IMG/VR virus record: IMGVR_UViG_3300026076_000078 | Location: 1-22,157 of that record | DNA from: a virus | Length of the DNA: 22,157 nucleotides | Direction: 5' to 3' (one strand) | Shown: in pieces, positions 1,963 through 18,670 of the stretch | Numbering within the stretch: position 1 is the stretch's first letter | How the letters are laid out: the number at the start of each line of letters is the position of its first letter | Program-made: the position numbers and the translations under genes | The notes under the pieces: model-generated | The model's input: only the letters and a program-made list of their open reading frames with translations | Told to the model about the DNA's origin: nothing | Database searches by the model: none

Positions 1963-4900
1963 TTATGTTAGATTATCAGGGGTACCAGGAATGTCTAGTC
2001 GTGGATTATCACTACTTATATCAGTACCCTGTCTGAGGATTGCAGAAGCAGGTGTGGTGACTTGAGCATCGATGCTTTCTTGTAGTGTATCATAAATCTG
2101 CACCAATTGACCAGCAGTTTCATAATATCCAGCATATTTAACACCATCTTTATAGAAGATAGCACCATAATATGCACGACCATCATAATATCCAGTCTGC
2201 TTCACACCTACCAGATCAGTAACTTGTAATAATTTATCACGATCCAAACCAGGATCTACAGGATCAGGAACTACCTCTACTACAGGAACTCCTCTAAATC
2301 CAGATCCTGTTGGAGAATCTATTGTTACACGAGGATAACCTGTAATTCCAACTCCAACAGTATCATCATCAATACATATTTTTTTAATTCTTCCATAAGA
2401 ATCCATCTCGCATATATGGGCTTTAGTACCACCTCCATTATTACCTATATCTACTGCATCATCAGGATTATAATTGATTCCAGGCGTATCTATAATTATT
2501 TCTTTTAACTTTATTCCAACAGGATATCCAGGACCAGTTGGTGGTTCCCAACCATTACCTGGAGATATAGGAATCACTTCATCAACCACCCCTGCTCCTC
2601 CTACTACATTAGGACAAGGTGGAGGGATAAGTATACCTGACACACCCATAGGATTTTCTGCCCAAGATTTATGTTTAGGTTTTCTACCTGCAGCCACATT
2701 TACATCCACTTTTCTAGTAATTGAAAGAGCCATTCCAGATGGATTGTTAAACCATGCTTGCTGTCCTCTATAATAATCAGCAGATAATTTTTTAAATAAA
2801 CCATCAGCAGCAATATTAGTCTTACCTAAGTTTCCAAAGGAGGGAGCAACAGCTACCACATGCTTTCCTTTAGTTACTTTTATCATCTTTGTTATACCAG
2901 TTTTCCAATTTGCTTCATCTCTTGCAGAAACTCCAGCAATTGTATCAAAATCTCCTATAATTATCTCCTTACCATCCAAATATACTGATCCATGAGCATC
3001 ATGAGCAAATAGAAATTTATAAGTATCATCTGCAGGAAAATCAACATTAGACCAAACATAATTTATTACTTGACCACTACCCCCAACTGGATAATCAGGA
3101 GCAACCCCACTCTTTTTCATAAATTGTCCATATCCTTTAAAAGCATAGCGATATAATTTAGGACCATCATAAGTAACTGCATCTTTCTGCACCTTAACTG
3201 ATGCTACAGAAGAATCTACTTTAAACTTACATATATTACCTTTAATATCATAAAATTTACCATGAGATGCCGTACATACCAAATCATCAAACGTTACCCC
3301 TCCTTGTTGTTCTGCTGGTACGTTAGGAATATCCTCTACCATTAATACACCACCATCTGTTTTTAAAGCAGCGAGTGGAGCAGGATAATTACCCATCAAT
3401 CCTTGTCCTGCATTTTTAATTTCAACAATATATTCTTTCCCAATCTCTACTCGTCTTATAATACCTTTCTTACCATCTAATTGACGCAACTGAGTTTCTT
3501 CAACAGGATCAAAAGTTTCAACCTCAGGTTCAGATAATTGTTTCACACTATTAGCAGTAAAATGTGCTCTAGTATCCCCAAAAGAATCTGCACCTGCGGT
3601 TGCACCCCCAGAAGTATCAAGATCAAAGAAATTAATTCTTCTACCTGGTATCTCTCGACTAACATTATCTAAACTACCAGCAGCATCAATGATAGGATCA
3701 GCAGCACCTGCTAATCTTTTAGTTGTTATAGGATATTCTTTACCACTTTTAAAGGTTCCTTTTTTAGTTACAGAACCTCCTCTAAAAGGCCATCCTGATA
3801 AATCTCTAGGACCATCAGTTCTTCTAAAAGATAGAGGAGTATCTTCGGTCTGAATGATGATATGACTAACAGCAATAGGTGGTGGATCAAATGATGGGAT
3901 AGGTGGATCAGATAACTGAGTAATTGAGTTAGTGCTAAAATATGCTCTTACATCTCCATCGAGATCTGGACCTGATGTTGCACCACCACTGGTATCTCGA
4001 TCAAAGAAATTTATTCGTTTATCTGGACCAGAACTGCTAGTATTATCCAAACTACCAGCAGGACCAATTACAGGATCAGGTGCTCCTGATATTGTACTAA
4101 AGGTAACTTCATATTCCCTCCCATTTATAAAGGTTCCATTTTGAATTACTACTCCTCCTCTACCAGGCCAACCATCTAATAACATTCTTGGTCCATCCGA
4201 CTTTGTAAAAGTAAGAGGAGCACCTTCAGTCCTAACAGTAATAGAAGTTACTGCATCTCCACCACCACGCTTAGGATCGTCTACATGATAACGAAACTCT
4301 AATGCTACATCTACCAAATAGTTACCAGTAACCTGCAAGAAATACTTACCACTCTTCTTCACGAACTTCATGGTGGCAGCAACAGGCACAGGATCAGGAG
4401 GAGAAGGTAGTGCTACATATCTAAAATCAAATCCAACTTCCACCAAATCATTACCCGTAACCGCCATGAAATAATCGCCACCCCTCTTTATAAATTCCAC
4501 ATTAGCATCAACTGCTGGTTTAATTTGAGGTGGTGGAGTTACTTTTCCTGCTATTAATTTTGGACCTTGTTCATAAAATAATCCTTTAATGTCTATAGAA
4601 TTAATAAGAGCTGTATTAGTCGTTACTTTAAAATCAACATCAACTGTCTTAGCAAGAGATCCCTCTCCAGCATCTACCCAGTCAGCAGCATTAAAAATCT
4701 TTTGGTCTATTAAATTCCTCTCTTCAAACAAATAATTCTCAACAACAACTTTTATCTTAGATGGTCCTTCATTTAGAAAAACCATTGTCTCATCTTTAAC
4801 CTTACCTGATCTTTTAGTTTCTAATTCTAATTTACCATCAATATAAAACTGAGAATTATCATCTGCCGAACCCTTTAACTTATAAAAACCATCGTAAGGA

Positions 4901-7506
4901 ATATCTACTGTCCATTCATTCTCAAAAGGAGTCCCACCACCTGATGTACTGTCTATATCATATGGTGGTACAGGAGACATTGCATATTTGTTAAGGAACG
5001 GTCCCCATCCATCAACATATACTGGATGCCATTGGACAGTTCCACCAGCAAATCTAGTAGTCCAGAAAGGATTAGGAGGACATCTACCTTCCTGTACTGG
5101 TTTAGGTTCTTGGGGAACAGGTGGATTGGGTGCATCAATTATCATGGCAACACCCATTGGGTTTTTATTCCAATCTAATTTCGCAACTCTTTCTTCTTTT
5201 GTAAAAACAGTTGTAATATTAATAGCCAAAGCCATAGGGTTTAATCCCTTTCCAAATCCAAATTTACCACCAGGAATTTGTTCTAATCCAGCAAAAATAT
5301 TATAAGTTCCTTCCTTTATATAATGGACTTCTCTTAATTTACCAGTGCTTCTATATCTACCCTTAACTATGGTAAATCCTTCCTTTCTAATCTCAACTTC
5401 ATCTCCTATTCTTAAATTAACATTATCATCAACTGCTATCTCAATAATATAGTTACCACTTATAGGAAAATTAACATTATTCCATCTGATTTCATGAGTT
5501 CCTGCATAAGGATTGTCAGGAAGAGTAATAGTAGTATCAAAAGGACAAATTCCATAGTCATTTATAAATCCCTGCCCACTACCAGAATTTATTCTCCATA
5601 GTTTTCTATTCGCTTTATTAATATAATCAACAGTATTAAAAATAGTCTTAAGTTTTGTAGACTCTGATGAAGTAGGTGCTTTAATTATAGTTCTTGATTC
5701 TTGTAGATTTTTGGCACTAACAAGTTTTAAAGATCCATTAGTATCTGACCCATGACTATCTAAGAAATCTATCTGACCATATTTAACACTATTAACACCA
5801 TAGGTAAGATTTTGTCTGACTAATTTAGTTGATCCACTATTACCCTCAACTATAAAAGGACCATATCCAAACTCACTACGTTTAAAAACTCCTTTAGCAG
5901 AAACCGATCCTTTAGTTTTAAAATTACCATTAGAATCTTTTTCTCTTTCCAATACTAAATCAGGACCATTTGGATTAGGAATAGTAATTTTAGTAACAGC
6001 AGTCCCTGCAGTCTTTGGATTATCATTATATTCTAAACTTAAAACCAATTCAGTTTCTTCATTACCACCAACAGCAAGATGATATCCATTACTCTTAAGA
6101 ATAAAATCTCCACCTGCTACTTGAATTTCTTGTCTAGTAGATATTTGATCTCCCTGAACTGTAATATCTTCTAATTTAGGATGATTATAAAGTTCTAATT
6201 TTAGTCTATGCTTACCCTTACCTGTTGACACTCTAAAAGTTAAAGGATTGGATAAGACACTACCAGCAGCACCACCTCTACCTATTTTAAAATCCGAAAC
6301 CGCTTCATTATCGAAAAAGAATCGAGCCTCATTATCACATTGTACTCTAAAAATATACTCCCCATCATAAGGAAATTCTACATCATCCCATTCAAATGTA
6401 TACCACCTTCCAGAAAAATCCGATCCCTTTGATTTTGACATAGGAACAGGTGATATAGCATATGAATTCATAAAATTCTCTTTATCAAACTCCCAATATG
6501 TACCAAATTTATAAGTCACATCTGACATGACAGGTTTTCCTTCTTCCTGAACCTTTTTCCATTCAGGTTGACGTTTCATATCCTGCTCAATCACAGCAAG
6601 ACTCTCACCACTCTCTCGTAAATTTTTCCAATACGCAAGACCAGATGGTTCCCCTCTTCTTCCAAATAATTTTATATAAAGATTATCAATTTCATCATTG
6701 GTTCCTGTTTTTGCACCCCATGCCCAATGATGTACTTTATAAAAAGTTTTTGTTGTTCTATTATCTCCTGTTACTTTACTGGGAGCTTCATGAGTAGTCC
6801 ACCAAGGACTTTGCACCCCTCGCAATTCCTTCATATAATTTTTAACTGTCTGCTCAAAAGGAGTCTCTTGAGGATTAATATACTTATTTGGATTCCATGC
6901 TCCTATATTTTTTCCTTCAGAAAATTCGACTCCATATCCTACAATTGGAGGAGCAAGTTCCATTACATGTGGAGGAAAATAATTCTCAAAATCTTCTTCA
7001 TCTTCATAAGTTTGATATGTAGTAACTGTTGAACCAATTCCAGCCCTAACAACTACACCTGCTGCATATCCTGTAGGATCCTCTACTGATACCTGAGGAG
7101 GATACTTATATCCGAATCCTCCTGAAACTAAATGAACTCCTAATAAAGATCCATCCTGTCCAATAACAGGATTAGCTTGAGCTCCTACACCTCCTCCTCC
7201 AGAAAAAATTATCTTAGGATCTTTATCCTCATCATCTTTAGTAAGAATATTCGCACCACCACAAGGATCGTTACCTCTAGGAAGATCATCAACAGTTAAC
7301 TTATTTACTTCATTTATATTAAGATATCGTGTCCCATCTCTATTATTAAAAATAAAAGTTGTTCCTGGATTTTTCTTAGCATATACGTTTGCATCCCATA
7401 ATCCTACCCCTGACACATATCCTGTTTCCGTAGAAATATAACCCACCTTTACATCACGTAAAGTGGGTGCTCCAAAAACATTAAATGATCCTTGACGTTC
7501 AGGCAT
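1963..7506 (-). CDS. Giant modular virion protein with four PA14-like modules (adhesin-like)
   Basis: A 1847-residue protein, the largest here. It probably sits on the outside of the baseplate or fibres and may bind surface sugars. The N-terminus (residues 15-75, with GYISTETGYV, RDGTRYLNINEVNKLT) and C-terminus (1770-1847, with TGYYDGRAYYGAIFYKDG, LQESIDAQVTTPASAI, DNPRLDIPGTPDNL) match ends I recall from marine T4-like structural proteins. Between them are a GGFGY repeat (about 124-158), a DUF4214-like segment (about 268-320), four PA14-like beta modules (about 331-437, 636-740, 813-925, 1449-1555) each with VxFPxDGxYxF and a D-[DN]-x-x-x-x-x-xDG-type strand, VTGN strands (468-495, 1003-1073), a tandem 125-residue repeat (1084-1334), paired NPMG motifs (756 and 782; 1588 and 1618) and Gly-Tyr repeats (1663-1748). 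PA14 domains often bind carbohydrate, but no calcium site can be confirmed here. CATAAATA overlaps the preceding stop only 6 nt before the ATG. Confidence 0.75.
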   Translation of the reverse strand: MPERQGSFNVFGAPTLRDVKVGYISTETGYVSGVGLWDANVYAKKNPGTTFIFNNRDGTRYLNINEVNKLTVDDLPRGNDPCGGANILTKDDEDKDPKIIFSGGGGVGAQANPVIGQDGSLLGVHLVSGGFGYKYPPQVSVEDPTGYAAGVVVRAGIGSTVTTYQTYEDEEDFENYFPPHVMELAPPIVGYGVEFSEGKNIGAWNPNKYINPQETPFEQTVKNYMKELRGVQSPWWTTHEAPSKVTGDNRTTKTFYKVHHWAWGAKTGTNDEIDNLYIKLFGRRGEPSGLAYWKNLRESGESLAVIEQDMKRQPEWKKVQEEGKPVMSDVTYKFGTYWEFDKENFMNSYAISPVPMSKSKGSDFSGRWYTFEWDDVEFPYDGEYIFRVQCDNEARFFFDNEAVSDFKIGRGGAAGSVLSNPLTFRVSTGKGKHRLKLELYNHPKLEDITVQGDQISTRQEIQVAGGDFILKSNGYHLAVGGNEETELVLSLEYNDNPKTAGTAVTKITIPNPNGPDLVLEREKDSNGNFKTKGSVSAKGVFKRSEFGYGPFIVEGNSGSTKLVRQNLTYGVNSVKYGQIDFLDSHGSDTNGSLKLVSAKNLQESRTIIKAPTSSESTKLKTIFNTVDYINKANRKLWRINSGSGQGFINDYGICPFDTTITLPDNPYAGTHEIRWNNVNFPISGNYIIEIAVDDNVNLRIGDEVEIRKEGFTIVKGRYRSTGKLREVHYIKEGTYNIFAGLEQIPGGKFGFGKGLNPMALAINITTVFTKEERVAKLDWNKNPMGVAMIIDAPNPPVPQEPKPVQEGRCPPNPFWTTRFAGGTVQWHPVYVDGWGPFLNKYAMSPVPPYDIDSTSGGGTPFENEWTVDIPYDGFYKLKGSADDNSQFYIDGKLELETKRSGKVKDETMVFLNEGPSKIKVVVENYLFEERNLIDQKIFNAADWVDAGEGSLAKTVDVDFKVTTNTALINSIDIKGLFYEQGPKLIAGKVTPPPQIKPAVDANVEFIKRGGDYFMAVTGNDLVEVGFDFRYVALPSPPDPVPVAATMKFVKKSGKYFLQVTGNYLVDVALEFRYHVDDPKRGGGDAVTSITVRTEGAPLTFTKSDGPRMLLDGWPGRGGVVIQNGTFINGREYEVTFSTISGAPDPVIGPAGSLDNTSSSGPDKRINFFDRDTSGGATSGPDLDGDVRAYFSTNSITQLSDPPIPSFDPPPIAVSHIIIQTEDTPLSFRRTDGPRDLSGWPFRGGSVTKKGTFKSGKEYPITTKRLAGAADPIIDAAGSLDNVSREIPGRRINFFDLDTSGGATAGADSFGDTRAHFTANSVKQLSEPEVETFDPVEETQLRQLDGKKGIIRRVEIGKEYIVEIKNAGQGLMGNYPAPLAALKTDGGVLMVEDIPNVPAEQQGGVTFDDLVCTASHGKFYDIKGNICKFKVDSSVASVKVQKDAVTYDGPKLYRYAFKGYGQFMKKSGVAPDYPVGGSGQVINYVWSNVDFPADDTYKFLFAHDAHGSVYLDGKEIIIGDFDTIAGVSARDEANWKTGITKMIKVTKGKHVVAVAPSFGNLGKTNIAADGLFKKLSADYYRGQQAWFNNPSGMALSITRKVDVNVAAGRKPKHKSWAENPMGVSGILIPPPCPNVVGGAGVVDEVIPISPGNGWEPPTGPGYPVGIKLKEIIIDTPGINYNPDDAVDIGNNGGGTKAHICEMDSYGRIKKICIDDDTVGVGITGYPRVTIDSPTGSGFRGVPVVEVVPDPVDPGLDRDKLLQVTDLVGVKQTGYYDGRAYYGAIFYKDGVKYAGYYETAGQLVQIYDTLQESIDAQVTTPASAILRQGTDISSDNPRLDIPGTPDNLT
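3505..4257 (-). repeat. Tandem ~125-residue repeat inside the giant structural gene
   Basis: Copy 1 (residues 1084-1208, bases 3883-4257) and copy 2 (residues 1212-1334, bases 3505-3873) align over their whole length. Shared motifs in order are DGPR, GWPxRGGxV, GTFxxGxEY, GAxDPxI, AGSLDN, RINFFDxDTSGGATxG, GDxRAxF, QLSxP and FDP. The DNA is also similar (for example GATCAAAGAAATT in both on the plus strand), so the duplication is fairly recent or kept similar by recombination. Confidence 0.85.
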
Positions 7507-12199: not shown

Positions 12200-14623
12200 T
12201 TAACGCTTCTGTAATTCCTTAGACCAATTAGAACTACTACCAGAAGAATTCAGTGATAATGATGCTAGTTCTACTTGTTCAACACCACCTTGCTGATCTG
12301 TGCCAGTATTAGTTGTTGGATTTCTCTTTTGTGTGACCACATAGGTTGTTGATCCTGAATCTTCTTCATAATCTGCGTAAGTATTAAGACCACTATAATC
12401 ATTACCCATTGATTTTCCTAACTCCACTGCCATCTGCTGCTTGGCACTTAAAGGTTTTCCTTCTTCAACTCTTTCACCAGCAATCTCTGTATAGTTTTCT
12501 GAAGTAGTGCTTGATTCTCCATCATCCCCCTTAAGATCTTTATCTTTCTTATCTTCATTTTCTTTAGGGTCTTTATCTCCAAAAATCTTATCATATAATA
12601 AACCACCCAATAAATCACCACCAGCACCACCTAAAAACATACCAATTGCAGTTCCAATACCTGGCAAAGGAACTAATGTACCTAGTGCTCCTCCTACCCA
12701 TGTACCTAGACCTGCACCTACTGCCATGAATGCAGACCTTCCTAGTGGTTCCTTAAATACAAAAACATTTAATAAGAAATCAACTAGAGGTCCTAAGAAA
12801 GGAATCTTCTTAACTATAGGACTGATAATCTTCTTAGCAGCCTTTAGTGTACCCGAAACTGCTTTAAGTCCCGCCTTACCTGCAGTGGTTGCTCCTTTTG
12901 CTGCTCCTTTTGCTGCAGCAGTAACTGCCTTGGTGGTGGTAGTTGCTACCTTACTTGCTGGTTTTACTATATTTTTTGTAAGAGATTTAGATGCACTCGT
13001 TGCTACTTTAGTTGCAGGTTTTACTATATTTTTAGTAATTGCCTTCGTTGCTTTCTGGGTAACTGGTTTTAAGGCTTTAGTTACAGGTCTTACTGCCTTT
13101 ATTAACTTCTGACGTTGCTTAGTAAAAGATTTTTTAAATTGTTTTACTGCTTTAGATCCTGGTTTCTTACCTCTTATCCTTATCTGAGGTCTCTTAGGTT
13201 TTGGTTTTGGTTTAATTTTGGGTGCTTTTATCTTTCCTTTCTGAAGGGCAGTTATCGCTCCTGCTCCTCCTCCCGTGAGCATTGTCTCTGATAAACCTTT
13301 ACTCTTAGAAATGTCATCATCTTCTTCATCCTTTTTTTTCTGATCTCCTACTGTTTGGTTTCCAAAGAAAACATCATACATCAATCCACCTAGTGCATCA
13401 CCTGCCCATCCCCCTAGAACTGCACCTACAAACGTACCTGCACCTGGAATTATACTTCCTATTGCACCACCTAACCATGCTGCTAGACCTGCACCAATTG
13501 CCTTGAACGCTGCTTTCCCAACAGGTTCTTTAAACACAAGAAGATTTAATGCAAAGTCTATCAAGGTTCCTATGATAGGAATCCCTCTTACAGTAGGACT
13601 TACAAATCTCTTTACTGTTTTAAGGAAAGTTTTACTTCCTTGTTTCCCTAAAAGAGTAGTTAATCCTTTTCTTCCTAATTTTGTTGCAGTAGATCGTGCA
13701 GCAGTGCCACCATATCTCTCAACTGCTTCACCACCAAATTTCTTAATCGCTGCATTTCTACCATACCTTTGAGCATATCTTGTAACTGCTGCTGGTTTAA
13801 CACCACGAGCACCACCTACTCTAGTAAGACCACCAGGACCACCGCCGCCACCAAACATACCTGATCTTGCTCCTACCATTGCAGCAATCAATGCTGTATT
13901 AAGAAGAATTTTAAACGTGTTTGATAGAGTATCAAATAACTTAAGTCCAGATTCACCAAACAAATTACCTACGGTTCCTCTGACACCATCATAAATTCCA
14001 TATCCCAAACCAATCAAACTGGTAAAAGTATTCAGAAGTTTTCCTCCCCAATCAATAACAAAATTTGCTACTGCTGCTAATCCTAAAGCAAGATTTTTAA
14101 ATAATCCTACATTATCAAGCAAACCCATCAAAATTTTACCTAAAAATAAGGTAACAAAAAAGTTTATAATATTTCCAAATATACTTTTTGCTTTTGTAGG
14201 TACAAGTCTACCAAGTCCAAACTTTCTACCATTCTTTTTGGTAGCACTTTCTAATTTCTTTTCGCTATCATCATCTTTCTTTTTTTCTGATCCTCTCTTT
14301 CTTTCAGTTTCTCTTATTTTATCTAATGCAATTGATCCCTTCAATAAGGTATCAACATCCACAAGACTAGTCTTAATTCTAAATGCGGTTCCTTCTAAAG
14401 TTTCTGTTCCTATAGAAGGAGTTGCCTTACTAATAGTGTTTGCATCGATGGCACGAGAAGAAGGAAGCAAAGGAGTTTTAGGTTTAACATTAACAGGAGT
14501 TGCTTCTACATCTACTGTTTGTTGAGAGGCAGGTGTTTCCTTTCTCTTAAACATACGACCAGCCATCTTAGACCCACGACCTGCCCTTCCTACTACTCCT
14601 CTTGCTATTGCTCCTAACACCAT
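12200..14623 (-). CDS. Tape-measure-like tail protein with duplicated hydrophobic modules and basic region
   Basis: An 807-residue protein. Residues 1-145 are polar and basic. Residues 147-205 form a hydrophobic block with FFVTLFLGKILMGLL, shared with the upstream 774-residue protein. A second hydrophobic helix (about 231-250) and a Gly-rich turn follow. An approximately 83-residue Gly-rich hydrophobic module occurs twice (339-421 and 599-682, with VFKEPxGxxAF and GAGLxxWxGGAxG). Residues 447-614 contain no Asp or Glu and are rich in Lys, Ala, Pro and Thr. The C-terminus carries GKPLSAKQQMAVELGKSMG. Such composition, next to hub and gp26 genes, fits a tube-filling tape-measure or DNA/membrane-interacting tail protein. 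It has no clear sequence match to T4 gp29. TAGGA before the ATG overlaps the preceding stop region (4-nt gap). Confidence 0.6.
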   Translation of the reverse strand: MVLGAIARGVVGRAGRGSKMAGRMFKRKETPASQQTVDVEATPVNVKPKTPLLPSSRAIDANTISKATPSIGTETLEGTAFRIKTSLVDVDTLLKGSIALDKIRETERKRGSEKKKDDDSEKKLESATKKNGRKFGLGRLVPTKAKSIFGNIINFFVTLFLGKILMGLLDNVGLFKNLALGLAAVANFVIDWGGKLLNTFTSLIGLGYGIYDGVRGTVGNLFGESGLKLFDTLSNTFKILLNTALIAAMVGARSGMFGGGGGPGGLTRVGGARGVKPAAVTRYAQRYGRNAAIKKFGGEAVERYGGTAARSTATKLGRKGLTTLLGKQGSKTFLKTVKRFVSPTVRGIPIIGTLIDFALNLLVFKEPVGKAAFKAIGAGLAAWLGGAIGSIIPGAGTFVGAVLGGWAGDALGGLMYDVFFGNQTVGDQKKKDEEDDDISKSKGLSETMLTGGGAGAITALQKGKIKAPKIKPKPKPKRPQIRIRGKKPGSKAVKQFKKSFTKQRQKLIKAVRPVTKALKPVTQKATKAITKNIVKPATKVATSASKSLTKNIVKPASKVATTTTKAVTAAAKGAAKGATTAGKAGLKAVSGTLKAAKKIISPIVKKIPFLGPLVDFLLNVFVFKEPLGRSAFMAVGAGLGTWVGGALGTLVPLPGIGTAIGMFLGGAGGDLLGGLLYDKIFGDKDPKENEDKKDKDLKGDDGESSTTSENYTEIAGERVEEGKPLSAKQQMAVELGKSMGNDYSGLNTYADYEEDSGSTTYVVTQKRNPTTNTGTDQQGGVEQVELASLSLNSSGSSSNWSKELQKR
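12578..13609 (-). repeat. Two copies of an ~83-residue Gly-rich hydrophobic module
   Basis: The copies are at 13361-13609 (residues 339-421) and 12578-12829 (residues 599-682). Shared landmarks are SPxV, IPxxGxLxDFxLN, VFKEPxG, GAGLxxWxGGAxGxxxP, GGxxGDxLGGLxYDxxFG. The 260-residue offset encloses the acidic-free basic region. Within that region a shorter 19-residue tandem repeat occurs at residues 530-567 (TKNIVKPATKVA and TKNIVKPASKVA; bases about 12923-13036). Confidence 0.85.
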
Positions 14624-14627
14624 ATTC

Positions 14628-16952
14628 CTATACCACTATCCCCAAAACATCTACTTTAGCTGGATCTATCATAAAAGAAGGTCTCAGAGTAAATTGAGGA
14701 ATTTCATTACCACCTGCGTCTGCTTCTTGATCTTGTTGTTGCTGTTCATTAACTGCTTGCTCATATGCAACTACAGTATTCTTTTTCTCCTTAGGTTTTA
14801 CTTCATACTTATCAGTATTGACCATTGCATCAACATTACTACTGATTGGTCCTAAGATCCCACTACTACCACCTTTACTACCACCTTCTTTTTTACCACC
14901 ACCAAACAATCCACCAACAGCACCTGCAGTTTTTCTTATCAATCCACCACCACTTTTTTTATCAAAGTCAAATAGATTACCCGTAAGTTGATCAGCAGTA
15001 CCACCAACAACACGTTTAAGTCCACCAAATAATCCACCACCTTTTTTCTTTTCCGTTACTGGAGTCTGTGTTGGTGTGGAAGTGCCTCCCCGACTTGCTA
15101 TTATTTGACTCTGGATTGCATGTATTTCGGCTCCAATTTCATTCCATCTCTTCCTATCCTTTCTTGATAATTTACCATCAGGTCCTCTGTCCATAGCATC
15201 TCTCTCATTTCGTAACTTTTCAAGTTGTGCCATTGGTCGATTATCAAAAGCTTCTGCCATAGCATTTGCTCTCTCTTGAGTCATTGGTTGCCCACCACCT
15301 TGCAATCCTTGAACTAACCCACCACTCATAAAATGCTGAACCAAACCACCACCAGTATATCCCATTTTATTCATCTGTCTTGCTCTATCCTCTGCTGATA
15401 TTCCTGCCTTTGCTGCTGCACTAGTAGTATCTGCTTGTGCTCTTAAGAATAATCTATTTGCTGCTGTGCCTGGAATATCTTTATTAATATCAAATGCCAT
15501 ATCTCCCTTGAAGTTAGGATTATCCAGTGTCTGACTTCTAATAAAAGTCATCTTCTGAAACAATGCTTGCGAAGCTTCTGGTGGTATCTCTTCATTACTC
15601 TGTACCATCCCCACTGAATTATTAAAAGCAGATTCACTTTGATTAGCAATGAACTCACCAAAGTTTGGCATCTTTCCATCCCTATCCATTTTTAATTTTA
15701 TACCGTTATAAGCATCAGGATTCTCATCTACTGCTGCATTCTGTTGCTCCATGAACTGTTTGAGAAAAGGAGAAACTACTTTTACAAACTCCTTTTGATG
15801 TTCAGGATTATCATAATCAAAATCCTCTCGTAATCCAAAATCTGCAGCAGTAGGAGTAGTAGGATCTCCACCATCAGCAAATCCTTTACGTTTTTTATCT
15901 GGCATCAATACTGGAATATTAGTTCCACCAGCAGCAGCATTCATTCCTTCAAGAGTATCCACTCCATATTCCTGAACTGCTCCCTTACTCATCACAAACT
16001 CACCAGGAGTTAGCATTGCAGGGACTGTATCCTTATTACCAGATCCAGGAACTGTTCCACCCTTATTCATTTGAAGTGGTTCTTGCTGATCATCACCACC
16101 TTGCATTCTACCTATACCATATCCAACTCCACCAGCAAGTGCGAGAGGAGCAGCAACTTTAGCAATCGCACCTATTTTTCCACCACCAGGAATCATCTTC
16201 ATAAATTTAGCAGACTTTAAAGCCACAATAGCTTTACCCATTGCAGGAATAAACCACATAATGGTTTTAATTAACCCTGCAACTAATCCACCAAATCCTG
16301 TTCCAAATAGTAACACTGCAGCAGTCAGAGCAGGCCACCAGTCCTTCACAAATCTAACTAAAGTTATTATCTTTCCTTGATTGGCTGGATTACCAAACCA
16401 ATCTATAAAATTCATCAAGATTTTTCCTAAGAAAAGTGTTTTTATAAAATTAAGTATCTTACTCCATATACTCATCACAGGTTTTATAATTGGATCTGCG
16501 AATTTTTGAAGAAGTTTTGGTTTCTCTAATTTTTTCTCTTGACTCGCACGATCTTTCTCCTCACGCTCCCTTCGCATACTTTCAGCAACACCTTTGTCAT
16601 TATCTTGCTGCTGAATCAAAGTATCTCTAATCGAATCAACAGTAGAAGCAATGGACTGAAGAGATTCCAATAAAGGACTCCCCATTTGCTGTGATTTATC
16701 CTGCTCTACCTCTGATTTTAATTGTTTATCTACATTCTGTTTACGAAGTTTGACGATGTTCTTTAATAAAGTAATCTTCTTTTCATTTGCAGTAACTCTT
16801 CCCTCTATATTATCGCTAGACTCTTTACTGGTTCCTTTCTTAAATGAATCGGCAGTTATAGTTGACCTCTTAACATTAAGCCCACCAAGTTTTTCCTTTT
16901 CATTCTTTAAAAAGGAAGATCCTTGTATTAATTGTTGGCGAGATTTAGCCAT
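14628..16952 (-). CDS. Tape-measure-like tail protein
   Basis: A 774-residue protein. Residues 48-147 are charged and probably coiled-coil. Residues 160-240 are hydrophobic, with FIKTLFLGKILMNFIDW and later LTAAVLLFGTGFGGLVAG, then a Gly/Ala helix to 281. Residues 296-330 carry KGGTVPGSGNKDTVPAMLTP, GEFVMSKGAVQEYG, a motif common in phage tail tape-measure proteins. Further GGGLVQHFMSGGLVQ repeats lie at 535-553, a charged helix at 555-620 and Gly-rich loops to 700. The end (PSFMIDPAKVDVLGIVV) matches C-termini I recall from marine T4-like tail proteins. Its ATG overlaps the last codons of the 61-residue frame by 8 nt, so translation is coupled to the chaperone-like gene, as in other tail operons where the chaperone precedes the tape measure. 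Confidence 0.7.
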   Translation of the reverse strand: MAKSRQQLIQGSSFLKNEKEKLGGLNVKRSTITADSFKKGTSKESSDNIEGRVTANEKKITLLKNIVKLRKQNVDKQLKSEVEQDKSQQMGSPLLESLQSIASTVDSIRDTLIQQQDNDKGVAESMRREREEKDRASQEKKLEKPKLLQKFADPIIKPVMSIWSKILNFIKTLFLGKILMNFIDWFGNPANQGKIITLVRFVKDWWPALTAAVLLFGTGFGGLVAGLIKTIMWFIPAMGKAIVALKSAKFMKMIPGGGKIGAIAKVAAPLALAGGVGYGIGRMQGGDDQQEPLQMNKGGTVPGSGNKDTVPAMLTPGEFVMSKGAVQEYGVDTLEGMNAAAGGTNIPVLMPDKKRKGFADGGDPTTPTAADFGLREDFDYDNPEHQKEFVKVVSPFLKQFMEQQNAAVDENPDAYNGIKLKMDRDGKMPNFGEFIANQSESAFNNSVGMVQSNEEIPPEASQALFQKMTFIRSQTLDNPNFKGDMAFDINKDIPGTAANRLFLRAQADTTSAAAKAGISAEDRARQMNKMGYTGGGLVQHFMSGGLVQGLQGGGQPMTQERANAMAEAFDNRPMAQLEKLRNERDAMDRGPDGKLSRKDRKRWNEIGAEIHAIQSQIIASRGGTSTPTQTPVTEKKKGGGLFGGLKRVVGGTADQLTGNLFDFDKKSGGGLIRKTAGAVGGLFGGGKKEGGSKGGSSGILGPISSNVDAMVNTDKYEVKPKEKKNTVVAYEQAVNEQQQQDQEADAGGNEIPQFTLRPSFMIDPAKVDVLGIVV

Positions 16953-17130
16953 ACTTAGATTGCTGTTGTTTGTTTTTTAATTCTTCCTCTTCAAGATGCT
17001 GTCGAAGAAGACCCACATAGATGTCTCGTTCCCAAGGCATCATATTTTCAATCTCTGTTAAGCTATATTTATGGTACTGCATCAAGGCAAAATTCACTCG
17101 GAAATAAGATTCCAAGTTCATATATGCCAT
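16945..17130 (-). CDS. Downstream frame of tail-assembly chaperone (probable gp26 -1 frameshift extension)
   Basis: A 61-residue frame, helical and charged, with SLTEIENMMPWERDIYVGLL and then LEEEELKNKQQQ. The MPWxRD/E-x-Y pattern recalls the distal domain of phage tail-assembly chaperones (the T part of lambda gpGT). It could correspond in position to T4 gp51, but sequence similarity to gp51 cannot be claimed. Its first ATG lies 2 nt past the gp26 stop and has no Shine-Dalgarno sequence. The frame is open back through the end of gp26, and a -1 slip on T TTT TTC there reads into it with three linking residues (Arg-Ile-Gly). It may therefore be made mainly as a fusion of about 302 residues (238 + 3 + 61). 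Stand-alone translation by coupling to the gp26 stop remains possible. Confidence 0.7.
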   Translation of the reverse strand: MAYMNLESYFRVNFALMQYHKYSLTEIENMMPWERDIYVGLLRQHLEEEELKNKQQQSKYG

Positions 17131-17132
17131 GC

Positions 17133-17852
17133 CTATGCGAAAAAAGACGCTAAGCCCTCCAGTACCACTTCACTTTCAACTTTTGTTTTAGGATTAGTAA
17201 CTTTAATAGTATGAGATAATTTAGGCATAGTCTCAAAGAACTTTTCAATATCCTTAAACTGTGATGAATTCATTGACTCAAGAAATTCTTTTACTTCTTT
17301 CTTAGTACAATCAGCAGTTGCCCAAACTTCTTCTTCATTATAAATCTTATCGATACAAGTACCAATCAACTCAAAAGATTGTTCCATTTGATTTCCATCA
17401 TTAAAATCAAAATTGTTCTTGATAAACTCATCTAAAGAAGGATATTTAAGTTCCATCATCAAATTATCATCTAACTTAATTTGTTTATTATGTTCATCAT
17501 TTATCTGAACTTTAATATCATCAACATCAATAGTAATTGGAACCTCAGTCTCCTTATCATCAGGACAAATAATCCTAAGTTCTAATTCTTCTCCAACAGA
17601 TTTACCACGAATATGAAGAAATAGAAATTCAATATCAAATGTAGGAAGAGTTTCTACTTTAATTCCTTTAGTAAGAACACAACTTTTAAGAACAGATTTA
17701 ATTGCTGTTGTGATCTGCTTGGTATCTTCACTCTCCAATGCAAGCACTAAAAGTTTTTCTTCTTTAACAAGGAAAGGTCTATATTTAACAGACTGACCTG
17801 TTGATGGTAACTCCAACTCATAAGTCGGAGTAGCAATTTTTGGTAAAGGCAT
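17133..17852 (-). CDS. gp26: Baseplate hub subunit gp26 (T4 baseplate family), likely chaperone
   Basis: A 239-residue homologue of T4 gp26 (208 residues), Pfam T4_baseplate type. Motifs seen are KYRPFLVKEEKLLVLALES (residues 23-41), AIKSVLKSCV (50-59), LPTFDIEFLFLHIRGKSVG (69-87), and a helical C-terminal half with PSLDEFIKNN. In T4, gp26 is needed for hub assembly. Its family also resembles the first partner of tail-assembly chaperone pairs, which fits the slippery heptamer two codons before the stop (17145-17139) and the following 61-residue frame. The start has TTAGGA 5 nt upstream, with a late-promoter-like CTAAATA 27 nt upstream. It opens the gp26-to-gp27 transcription unit. Identity is fairly certain. 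Confidence 0.85.
   Translation of the reverse strand: MPLPKIATPTYELELPSTGQSVKYRPFLVKEEKLLVLALESEDTKQITTAIKSVLKSCVLTKGIKVETLPTFDIEFLFLHIRGKSVGEELELRIICPDDKETEVPITIDVDDIKVQINDEHNKQIKLDDNLMMELKYPSLDEFIKNNFDFNDGNQMEQSFELIGTCIDKIYNEEEVWATADCTKKEVKEFLESMNSSQFKDIEKFFETMPKLSHTIKVTNPKTKVESEVVLEGLASFFA
17139..17160 (-). promoter_or_regulatory. Programmed -1 frameshift site (slippery T TTT TTC with upstream SD-like GGAGGG)
   Basis: In the gp26 frame the codons are TCT TTT TTC GCA TAG. The heptamer T_TTT_TTC (17145-17139) has the X_XXY_YYZ form in the correct phase. GGAGGG (17160-17155) lies 9 nt upstream, close to the spacing of the stimulatory Shine-Dalgarno sequence in E. coli dnaX. A -1 slip continues as CGC ATA GGC ATG, which is the 61-residue frame. 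No strong downstream hairpin was evident by eye. Confidence 0.72.
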
Positions 17853-17893: not shown

Positions 17894-18670
17894 TTATTGA
17901 TCTCCTATAAAGTTACCATTCTCATCATAAAAACTTATAGAATCAATTTGTTCCTGAGTTATTACTTTATTTTTTTCAGCATTAAATTCTGATAACCCTG
18001 TGGGATCTATGGCAAAATTTTTACTTGGAGCAGAACCTTGTGCTCCTGATATTCCTTGTACAATATACCTAATATATGTCAAAGATACAGTGCATCTTAA
18101 TAAATCTGACCCATTATAGGTAACAGGCATTGCGGTTATATTTCTTGGAAAACTCTTTAGGAATTCATACTTTAATCTTTGTTTATAATCTCTTTCAAAT
18201 TTAGTAACTGTTAATCCCGTAGCAGTATAACCTGCTGTTCCATCAGGATATCTCATTCTATAAAAATAATTATTCGATCTCACCTCCTTTTCTGATCCTT
18301 GTGGTCCATATTGTTCTCCTGTAATATATGCCATCCATGTTTCAAAAACTCTAATTGGTAAATAATCTTTCGCATCTACATAGAATGTTAAATCTATTAC
18401 TTCATCAAATACCCTTCTATATGCATGTCTCTCAGTAACACCTGTAAAATTATTATTAATTTCCGTTGTGGCTAAGGAACTTCCAGGAAGTGTTGCTTCA
18501 GAACACAATAAATGAAGTTGCTCTTGATGGGGGTTTTGGGAATAACCAAATGCATCACTCATTACCTTATCAAATCCAGGAGGCAATCCAATAGTCACCT
18601 CATAATGAGATGTCAATGCTGGACGCAATAGATTAGATTTAATCGCAGCTATGTTTTTTACAGAAGGCAT
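17894..18670 (-). CDS. Tail-tube-like baseplate protein (possible gp54-type tube initiator)
   Basis: A 258-residue protein with the look of the gp19/gp48/gp54 tail-tube fold: an N-terminal SNLLRPALTSHYEVTIGLPP, then LHLLCSEATLPGSSLATTEI (the loop typical of tube proteins), AYRRVFDEVIDLTFYVD, FETWMAYITG and YEFLKSFPRNITAMPVTY before a final strand LTYIRYIV. T4 gp54 (320 residues) starts tube polymerisation on gp48, and the gp48 gene lies just across the divergent promoter. That pairing favours a gp54-like role, but a distinct tube-related baseplate protein is possible. The gene is divergent from gp4. Its ATG has no good Shine-Dalgarno sequence. A TATAAT lies 25 nt upstream. Confidence 0.6.
   Translation of the reverse strand: MPSVKNIAAIKSNLLRPALTSHYEVTIGLPPGFDKVMSDAFGYSQNPHQEQLHLLCSEATLPGSSLATTEINNNFTGVTERHAYRRVFDEVIDLTFYVDAKDYLPIRVFETWMAYITGEQYGPQGSEKEVRSNNYFYRMRYPDGTAGYTATGLTVTKFERDYKQRLKYEFLKSFPRNITAMPVTYNGSDLLRCTVSLTYIRYIVQGISGAQGSAPSKNFAIDPTGLSEFNAEKNKVITQEQIDSISFYDENGNFIGDQ

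Follow-up and report, generated by a model that had tools for sequence, protein, structure and literature searches.

The locus described here lies in the IMG/VR virus record IMGVR_UViG_3300026076_000078. The stretch of DNA that was analyzed, called the window, comprises positions 1 to 22,157 of that record (22,157 nucleotides), and all coordinates below are those of the window. A tail-tube-like gene is followed on the minus strand by a homolog of T4 gene 26, a short frame that encodes a gp51-type C-terminal domain (C-domain), and tape-measure-like frames (Table 1). The order tube, gp26, C-domain, tape-measure-like matches the V-G-T-H order of phage lambda. Residues 161-221 of the 774-residue open reading frame (ORF) are 41% identical to residues 147-209 of the 807-residue ORF (E 1e-7). 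An 1847-residue ORF occupies positions 1963-7506 of the minus strand, and several similar PA14-looking stretches can be recognized in it by eye.

Table 1. Features of the gene 26 region, in window coordinates (TAC, tail assembly chaperone; SD, Shine-Dalgarno)
Feature	Position	Strand	Evidence
Tail-tube-like gene, directly upstream of gp26	17894..18670	-	PF23849 Phage_TTP_2 8e-13; phrog_45 tail tube 2e-30
Gene 26 homolog, putative TAC-N short form, 239 aa	17133..17852	-	PF12322 T4_baseplate 1.9e-74; phrog_150 8e-80; AlphaFold2 pLDDT 91
SD-like GGAGGG, candidate 5' stimulator	17155..17160	-	9 nt upstream of slip site
Slippery heptamer T_TTT_TTC	17139..17145	-	Sequence; kept in relatives
Zero-frame stop TAG of gp26	17133..17135	-	Sequence
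60-nt downstream RNA structure, candidate 3' stimulator	17079..17138	-	Folding z scores
-1 frame extension, R-I-G + 61-residue TAC-C (gp51-type) domain, giving a predicted 302-aa TAC-NC	16945..17139	-	phrog_634 1e-28; phrog_150 C-terminus
774-aa ORF, tape-measure-like, likely client, overlaps the TAC-C end	14628..16952	-	Weak PHROG match; hydrophobic segments
807-aa ORF, second tape-measure-like	12200..14623	-	Profile matches; stretch common to 774-aa ORF

The 3' end of gene 26 reads GAG GGC TTA GCG TCT TTT TTC GCA TAG GC ATG on the minus strand. The heptamer T_TTT_TTC is in the X_XXY_YYZ phase, and a single codon separates its end from the TAG. If read with a slip of one base backwards, the sequence continues as F F R I G M A Y M... 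and stays open to 16945, giving a fusion of 302 residues. The ATG at 17130 lies 2 nt past the TAG in the -1 frame, and no ribosome-binding site is suitably spaced from it. The original prediction, an earlier reading of the same DNA by sequence alone, had claimed an in-phase T_TTT_TTC near the gp26 stop, a GGAGGG 9 nt upstream of it, a -1 frame that passes through Arg-Ile-Gly into a 61-residue frame without a stop (about 302 residues in total), and the lack of a ribosome-binding site proper to that frame. All these elements are present where they were described, the heptamer at 17145-17139 and the SD-like element at 17160-17155. The RNA structure downstream of the heptamer was absent from that prediction and is added here. 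The heptamer, its phase, the -1 frame, their conservation, the potential for structure and the identities of the domains can all be read directly from the nucleotides and their translations.

Gp26 matches PF12322 with 250.5 bits, above the curated cut-off of 24.5 for this T4 gp26/gp51 family; T4 gp26 and T4 gp51 score 215.6 and 177.5 bits, respectively. The 61-residue frame corresponds to phrog_634 (gp51, 'baseplate hub assembly catalyst'). It matches phrog_150 as well, at the C-terminal end of that profile, which covers the gp26-like part together with the C-domain. Residues 1-287 of the fusion align with positions 5-280 of the 282 in phrog_150, with 307 bits compared to 269 for gp26 alone. 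T4 gp51 (249 residues) matches the whole length of phrog_150 and, with its C terminus, phrog_634, and its alignment with the fusion crosses the junction (23% identity, E 1e-6). On these profile matches, T4 gp51 is the long form written as one uninterrupted gene. Gp26 and gp51 are listed as hub assembly chaperones (PMC3004832).

The folds nearest to residues 1-95 of the gp26 model in the Protein Data Bank are 3fgx (Z 7.9), the HK97 TAC 2ob9 (7.8) and YqbN 3klu (7.3), followed by the next at 4.7, where Z scores below 8 are middling. Foldseek ranked 2ob9 second for the gp26 model, but with an E value of 0.8. The predicted N-terminal fold thus supports, without proving, the assignment of gp26 as a tail assembly chaperone. 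The C-domain model consists of three helices, and a fold search with it gave no significant match. Sequence searches of the Protein Data Bank with the gp26 and C-domain profiles found nothing. Of the putative clients, the 774-residue ORF contains hydrophobic segments and has a weak match to a tape-measure PHROG (7e-6 over a short stretch). Such matches, the hydrophobic segments and the position suggest, if weakly, that the ORFs after the C-domain are plausible tape-measure proteins, possibly encoded by tandem, partly paralogous genes.

Relatives of the locus were taken from IMG/VR and from annotated phages, and 317 distinct junctions were compared. Alignment of relatives for the heptamer and its phase had been named beforehand as a check. 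Both are kept: the codon-phased T_TTT_TTN is found in 313 of the 317 junctions, which is the fair figure for conservation because the motif was the criterion for selecting the 313. In all of these 313 the T run starts at codon position 3, the second frame is offset by -1, and that frame is open past the slip site; the downstream domain is 56-76 codons long in the 306 relatives with a readable stop. The last base of the heptamer is C in 275, A in 21, T in 16 and G in 1. It varies even when Phe is changed to Leu as a result, and thus the nucleotides are conserved and not the protein. Given the amino acids, about 153 of the 313 would be expected from codon usage to have NNT-TTT. Other conserved Phe columns of the same gene are TTT in 43-93% of cases, compared to 100% for the slip-site column in the 313, where this holds by construction. 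The bare heptamer is not rare in the AT-rich window (13 copies compared to 11.7 expected from shuffles). Its mere presence therefore proves nothing, and it is the conservation that gives it significance. Many of the relatives are closely related, and the counts are those of related sequences, not of independent events. The slip site is found in phages of cyanobacteria, Pelagibacter, Vibrio, Aeromonas, Delftia, Stenotrophomonas, Pseudomonas (Milchi) and Agrobacterium.

The exceptions to T_TTT_TTN are the IMG/VR locus L155, Cygsa01, the Vibrio K369 group and IME-SM1. In L155 (IMGVR_UViG_3300049043_000112), the slip site differs slightly, which puts gp26 and the C-domain in one open frame, and the fused gene is the only PF12322 copy in a 236-kb record. 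An assembly error could be the cause of this in-frame fusion. Pseudomonas phage Cygsa01 and the Vibrio K369/D510/K469 group (L088, L093, L347 and L348) have the -1 layout and a TAATG stop-start overlap but lack T_TTT_TT, and may rely on coupling or on a different slip site. IME-SM1 (L089, KR560069) has a T5 run, one T short at the slip site, which takes the gp26 of this record into another frame. All 14 other Stenotrophomonas entries have one base more at this position, and Mendera has T6. IME-SM1 accordingly only seems to be an exception, its T5 run being probably a sequencing difference specific to that record.

The SD-like element is enriched across the relatives. Glu-Gly codon pairs at the site are SD-like (GAG GGN or GAA GGG) in 203 of 256 cases overall and in 88 of 92 in the near clade, compared to 45 of 122 Glu-Gly pairs elsewhere in the same genes. 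When measured against synonymous recoding, the energy of the duplex with the anti-SD sequence has a mean z of -0.89 at the site and 0.07 at other positions. This enrichment is consistent with a role for GGAGGG in stimulating slippage at the gp26 site.

The 60 nt that follow the heptamer in the window (17079-17138) have a minimum free energy of -19.4 kcal/mol and a z score of -3.36, and none of 200 shuffles was as stable. Synonymous recoding gives a similar z of about -3.3. Over 309 relatives, the mean z of this stretch against synonymous recoding is -2.32, whereas the values for other stretches range from -0.17 to -1.05. In the P-SSM2-like subclade an 11-bp stem begins 5 nt past the heptamer; 94.5% of the alignment cells pair, and 23 cells are changed on both sides in a compensatory manner. 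The covariation of this stem is 0.203, compared to 0.100 in shuffles (0 of 500 reached it) and at most 0.085 in slid controls. These results indicate selection on a 3' RNA structure a few nucleotides past the heptamer. The structure in the window is a long irregular stem, unlike the compact hairpin of the P-SSM2-like subclade: the compact 40-nt hairpin is absent from the window (z about 0.1), and structure appears only in the 60-nt stretch. A covariation test over all relatives found no common structure, and no single structure covers them all. At the gp26 slip site the downstream structure would be a further stimulator of slippage. It is possible, and put forward here tentatively, that the SD-like element, T_TTT_TTN and a 3' structure rebuilt with differing shapes from lineage to lineage form a three-part cassette that sets the TAC-N:TAC-NC ratio, with its stimulators under selection, an arrangement previously undescribed for the family.

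The conserved slip signals, the gp51 C-domain and the predicted fold similar to the HK97 TAC together point to a TAC-N/TAC-NC pair of the lambda G/GT type. With high confidence, gp26 is predicted to be the short form and the 302-residue fusion the long form, produced by programmed -1 frameshifting. The original prediction had proposed just such a G/GT-like joining of gp26 to the next frame, and the heptamer, its phase, the -1 offset and the enrichment of the SD-like element bear it out. Most ribosomes would stop at the TAG and make the 239-residue TAC-N. On T_TTT_TTC a minority would shift back by one base, so that both tRNAs pair anew with TTT TTT, and would continue to a 302-residue TAC-NC composed of gp26, R-I-G and the gp51-type C-domain. 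Pausing would probably help the slippage, as GGAGGG pairs with the 3' end of the 16S RNA and the RNA structure lies just downstream. Like lambda gpG and gpGT, both forms would bind the tape-measure protein and recruit subunits of the tail tube. Slippage and its rate, the stimulatory roles of the SD-like element and the RNA structure, and the chaperone function of the products are inferred here.

The same layout could in principle serve translational coupling, in which ribosomes that have stopped at the TAG would reinitiate at the ATG 2 nt on and make a separate 61-residue gp51. The adjacency of stop and ATG in the window, the TAATG overlap in some lineages and the annotation of two genes in GenBank records speak for this explanation. 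However, no ATG, GTG or TTG lies in the -1 frame between the slip site and the conserved downstream domain in 116 of the 313 relatives. Furthermore, conservation extends to the residues that separate the slip site from any ATG and to the junction peptide in general (e.g. His at position 6 in 90%), T4 encodes both domains as one protein, and coupling leaves the heptamer and its phase unexplained. Coupling in place of frameshifting is thus improbable. Because the ATG is in the -1 frame so close to the TAG, stop-start coupling could nevertheless add some free C-domain to the products of frameshifting.

Transcriptional slippage, by which the gain or loss of a base within the T6 run during RNA synthesis would make some mRNAs encode the fusion, is less probable still. 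The run it needs is present, and is T7 in 16 relatives, but T6 is short for this process. The run always begins at codon position 3, and ribosomes would be sensitive to this phase whereas the polymerase would not; the upstream SD-like element and the downstream RNA structure fit ribosomal slippage. Lastly, the heptamer could be a chance succession of two Phe codons in an AT-rich gene, and the small frame after it could be unrelated. The number of heptamers in the window, about that of shuffles, would agree with this, but this very remote explanation is already contradicted by the comparative data, as the motif is kept in 313 of 317 junctions where about half would be expected and the second frame is a known domain (phrog_634).

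Programmed -1 frameshifting at gp26 has several counterparts. The E. coli dnaX gene has an upstream SD-like element, a slippery heptamer and a downstream RNA structure. Only this layout is common to dnaX and the window: the dnaX heptamer is A_AAA_AAG, and the shift leads to early termination. Vladimirov et al. in 2022 reportedly found frameshifting to be conserved in several T4-like groups, with T4 using genes 26 and 51. As related from that work (Vladimirov, Gautam and Davidson 2022, Virology 566:9-15), some T4-like phages have one short and one long TAC gene and no frameshifting (PMC10885494), and poly-T frameshift signals occur in T4-like TAC-N genes (PMC12846349). By these accounts, -1 frameshifting in T4-like TAC genes has already been reported, and the present site is not new in kind. 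The T4-like TACs belong to the same family as gp26 of the window (PF12322, phrog_150, phrog_634) and follow the same logic of a short and a long form. T4 itself is described as having two separate genes (PMC10885494), whereas the window has one gene that would slip.

In lambda, G/GT functions as a short protein and its -1 extension (PMC5009743). The pair in the window would have the same composition and lies between a tail-tube-like gene and putative tape-measure genes. However, lambda slips on G_GGA_AAG, whereas the heptamer of the window is T_TTT_TTC, and lambda G and T overlap, whereas the gp26 stop is one codon past the slip site. The TAC locus of Pseudomonas phage Adele (Vandenendeviridae/Andersonviridae, PMC12846349) is also predicted to undergo a -1 frameshift. 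Like the window, it has an open -1 frame, and GTTTTT is conserved at the end of TAC-N. These phage families are different from that of the window.

Judged by sequence comparison, the site in the window is a new, well supported case of TAC frameshifting, and this marine T4-like phage very probably produces a tail assembly chaperone in two versions from one gene. In the records inspected, gp26 and the C-domain are annotated as unrelated proteins, or the C-domain is left out. T4-like phages rank with the most common marine viruses. A single chaperone gene that gives two products would explain what gp26 and gp51 are for, and what T4 encodes in two separate genes would correspond, in its marine relatives, to one gene that slips. 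The signals conserved in the RNA would lend themselves to studies of how the balance between short and long form is set.
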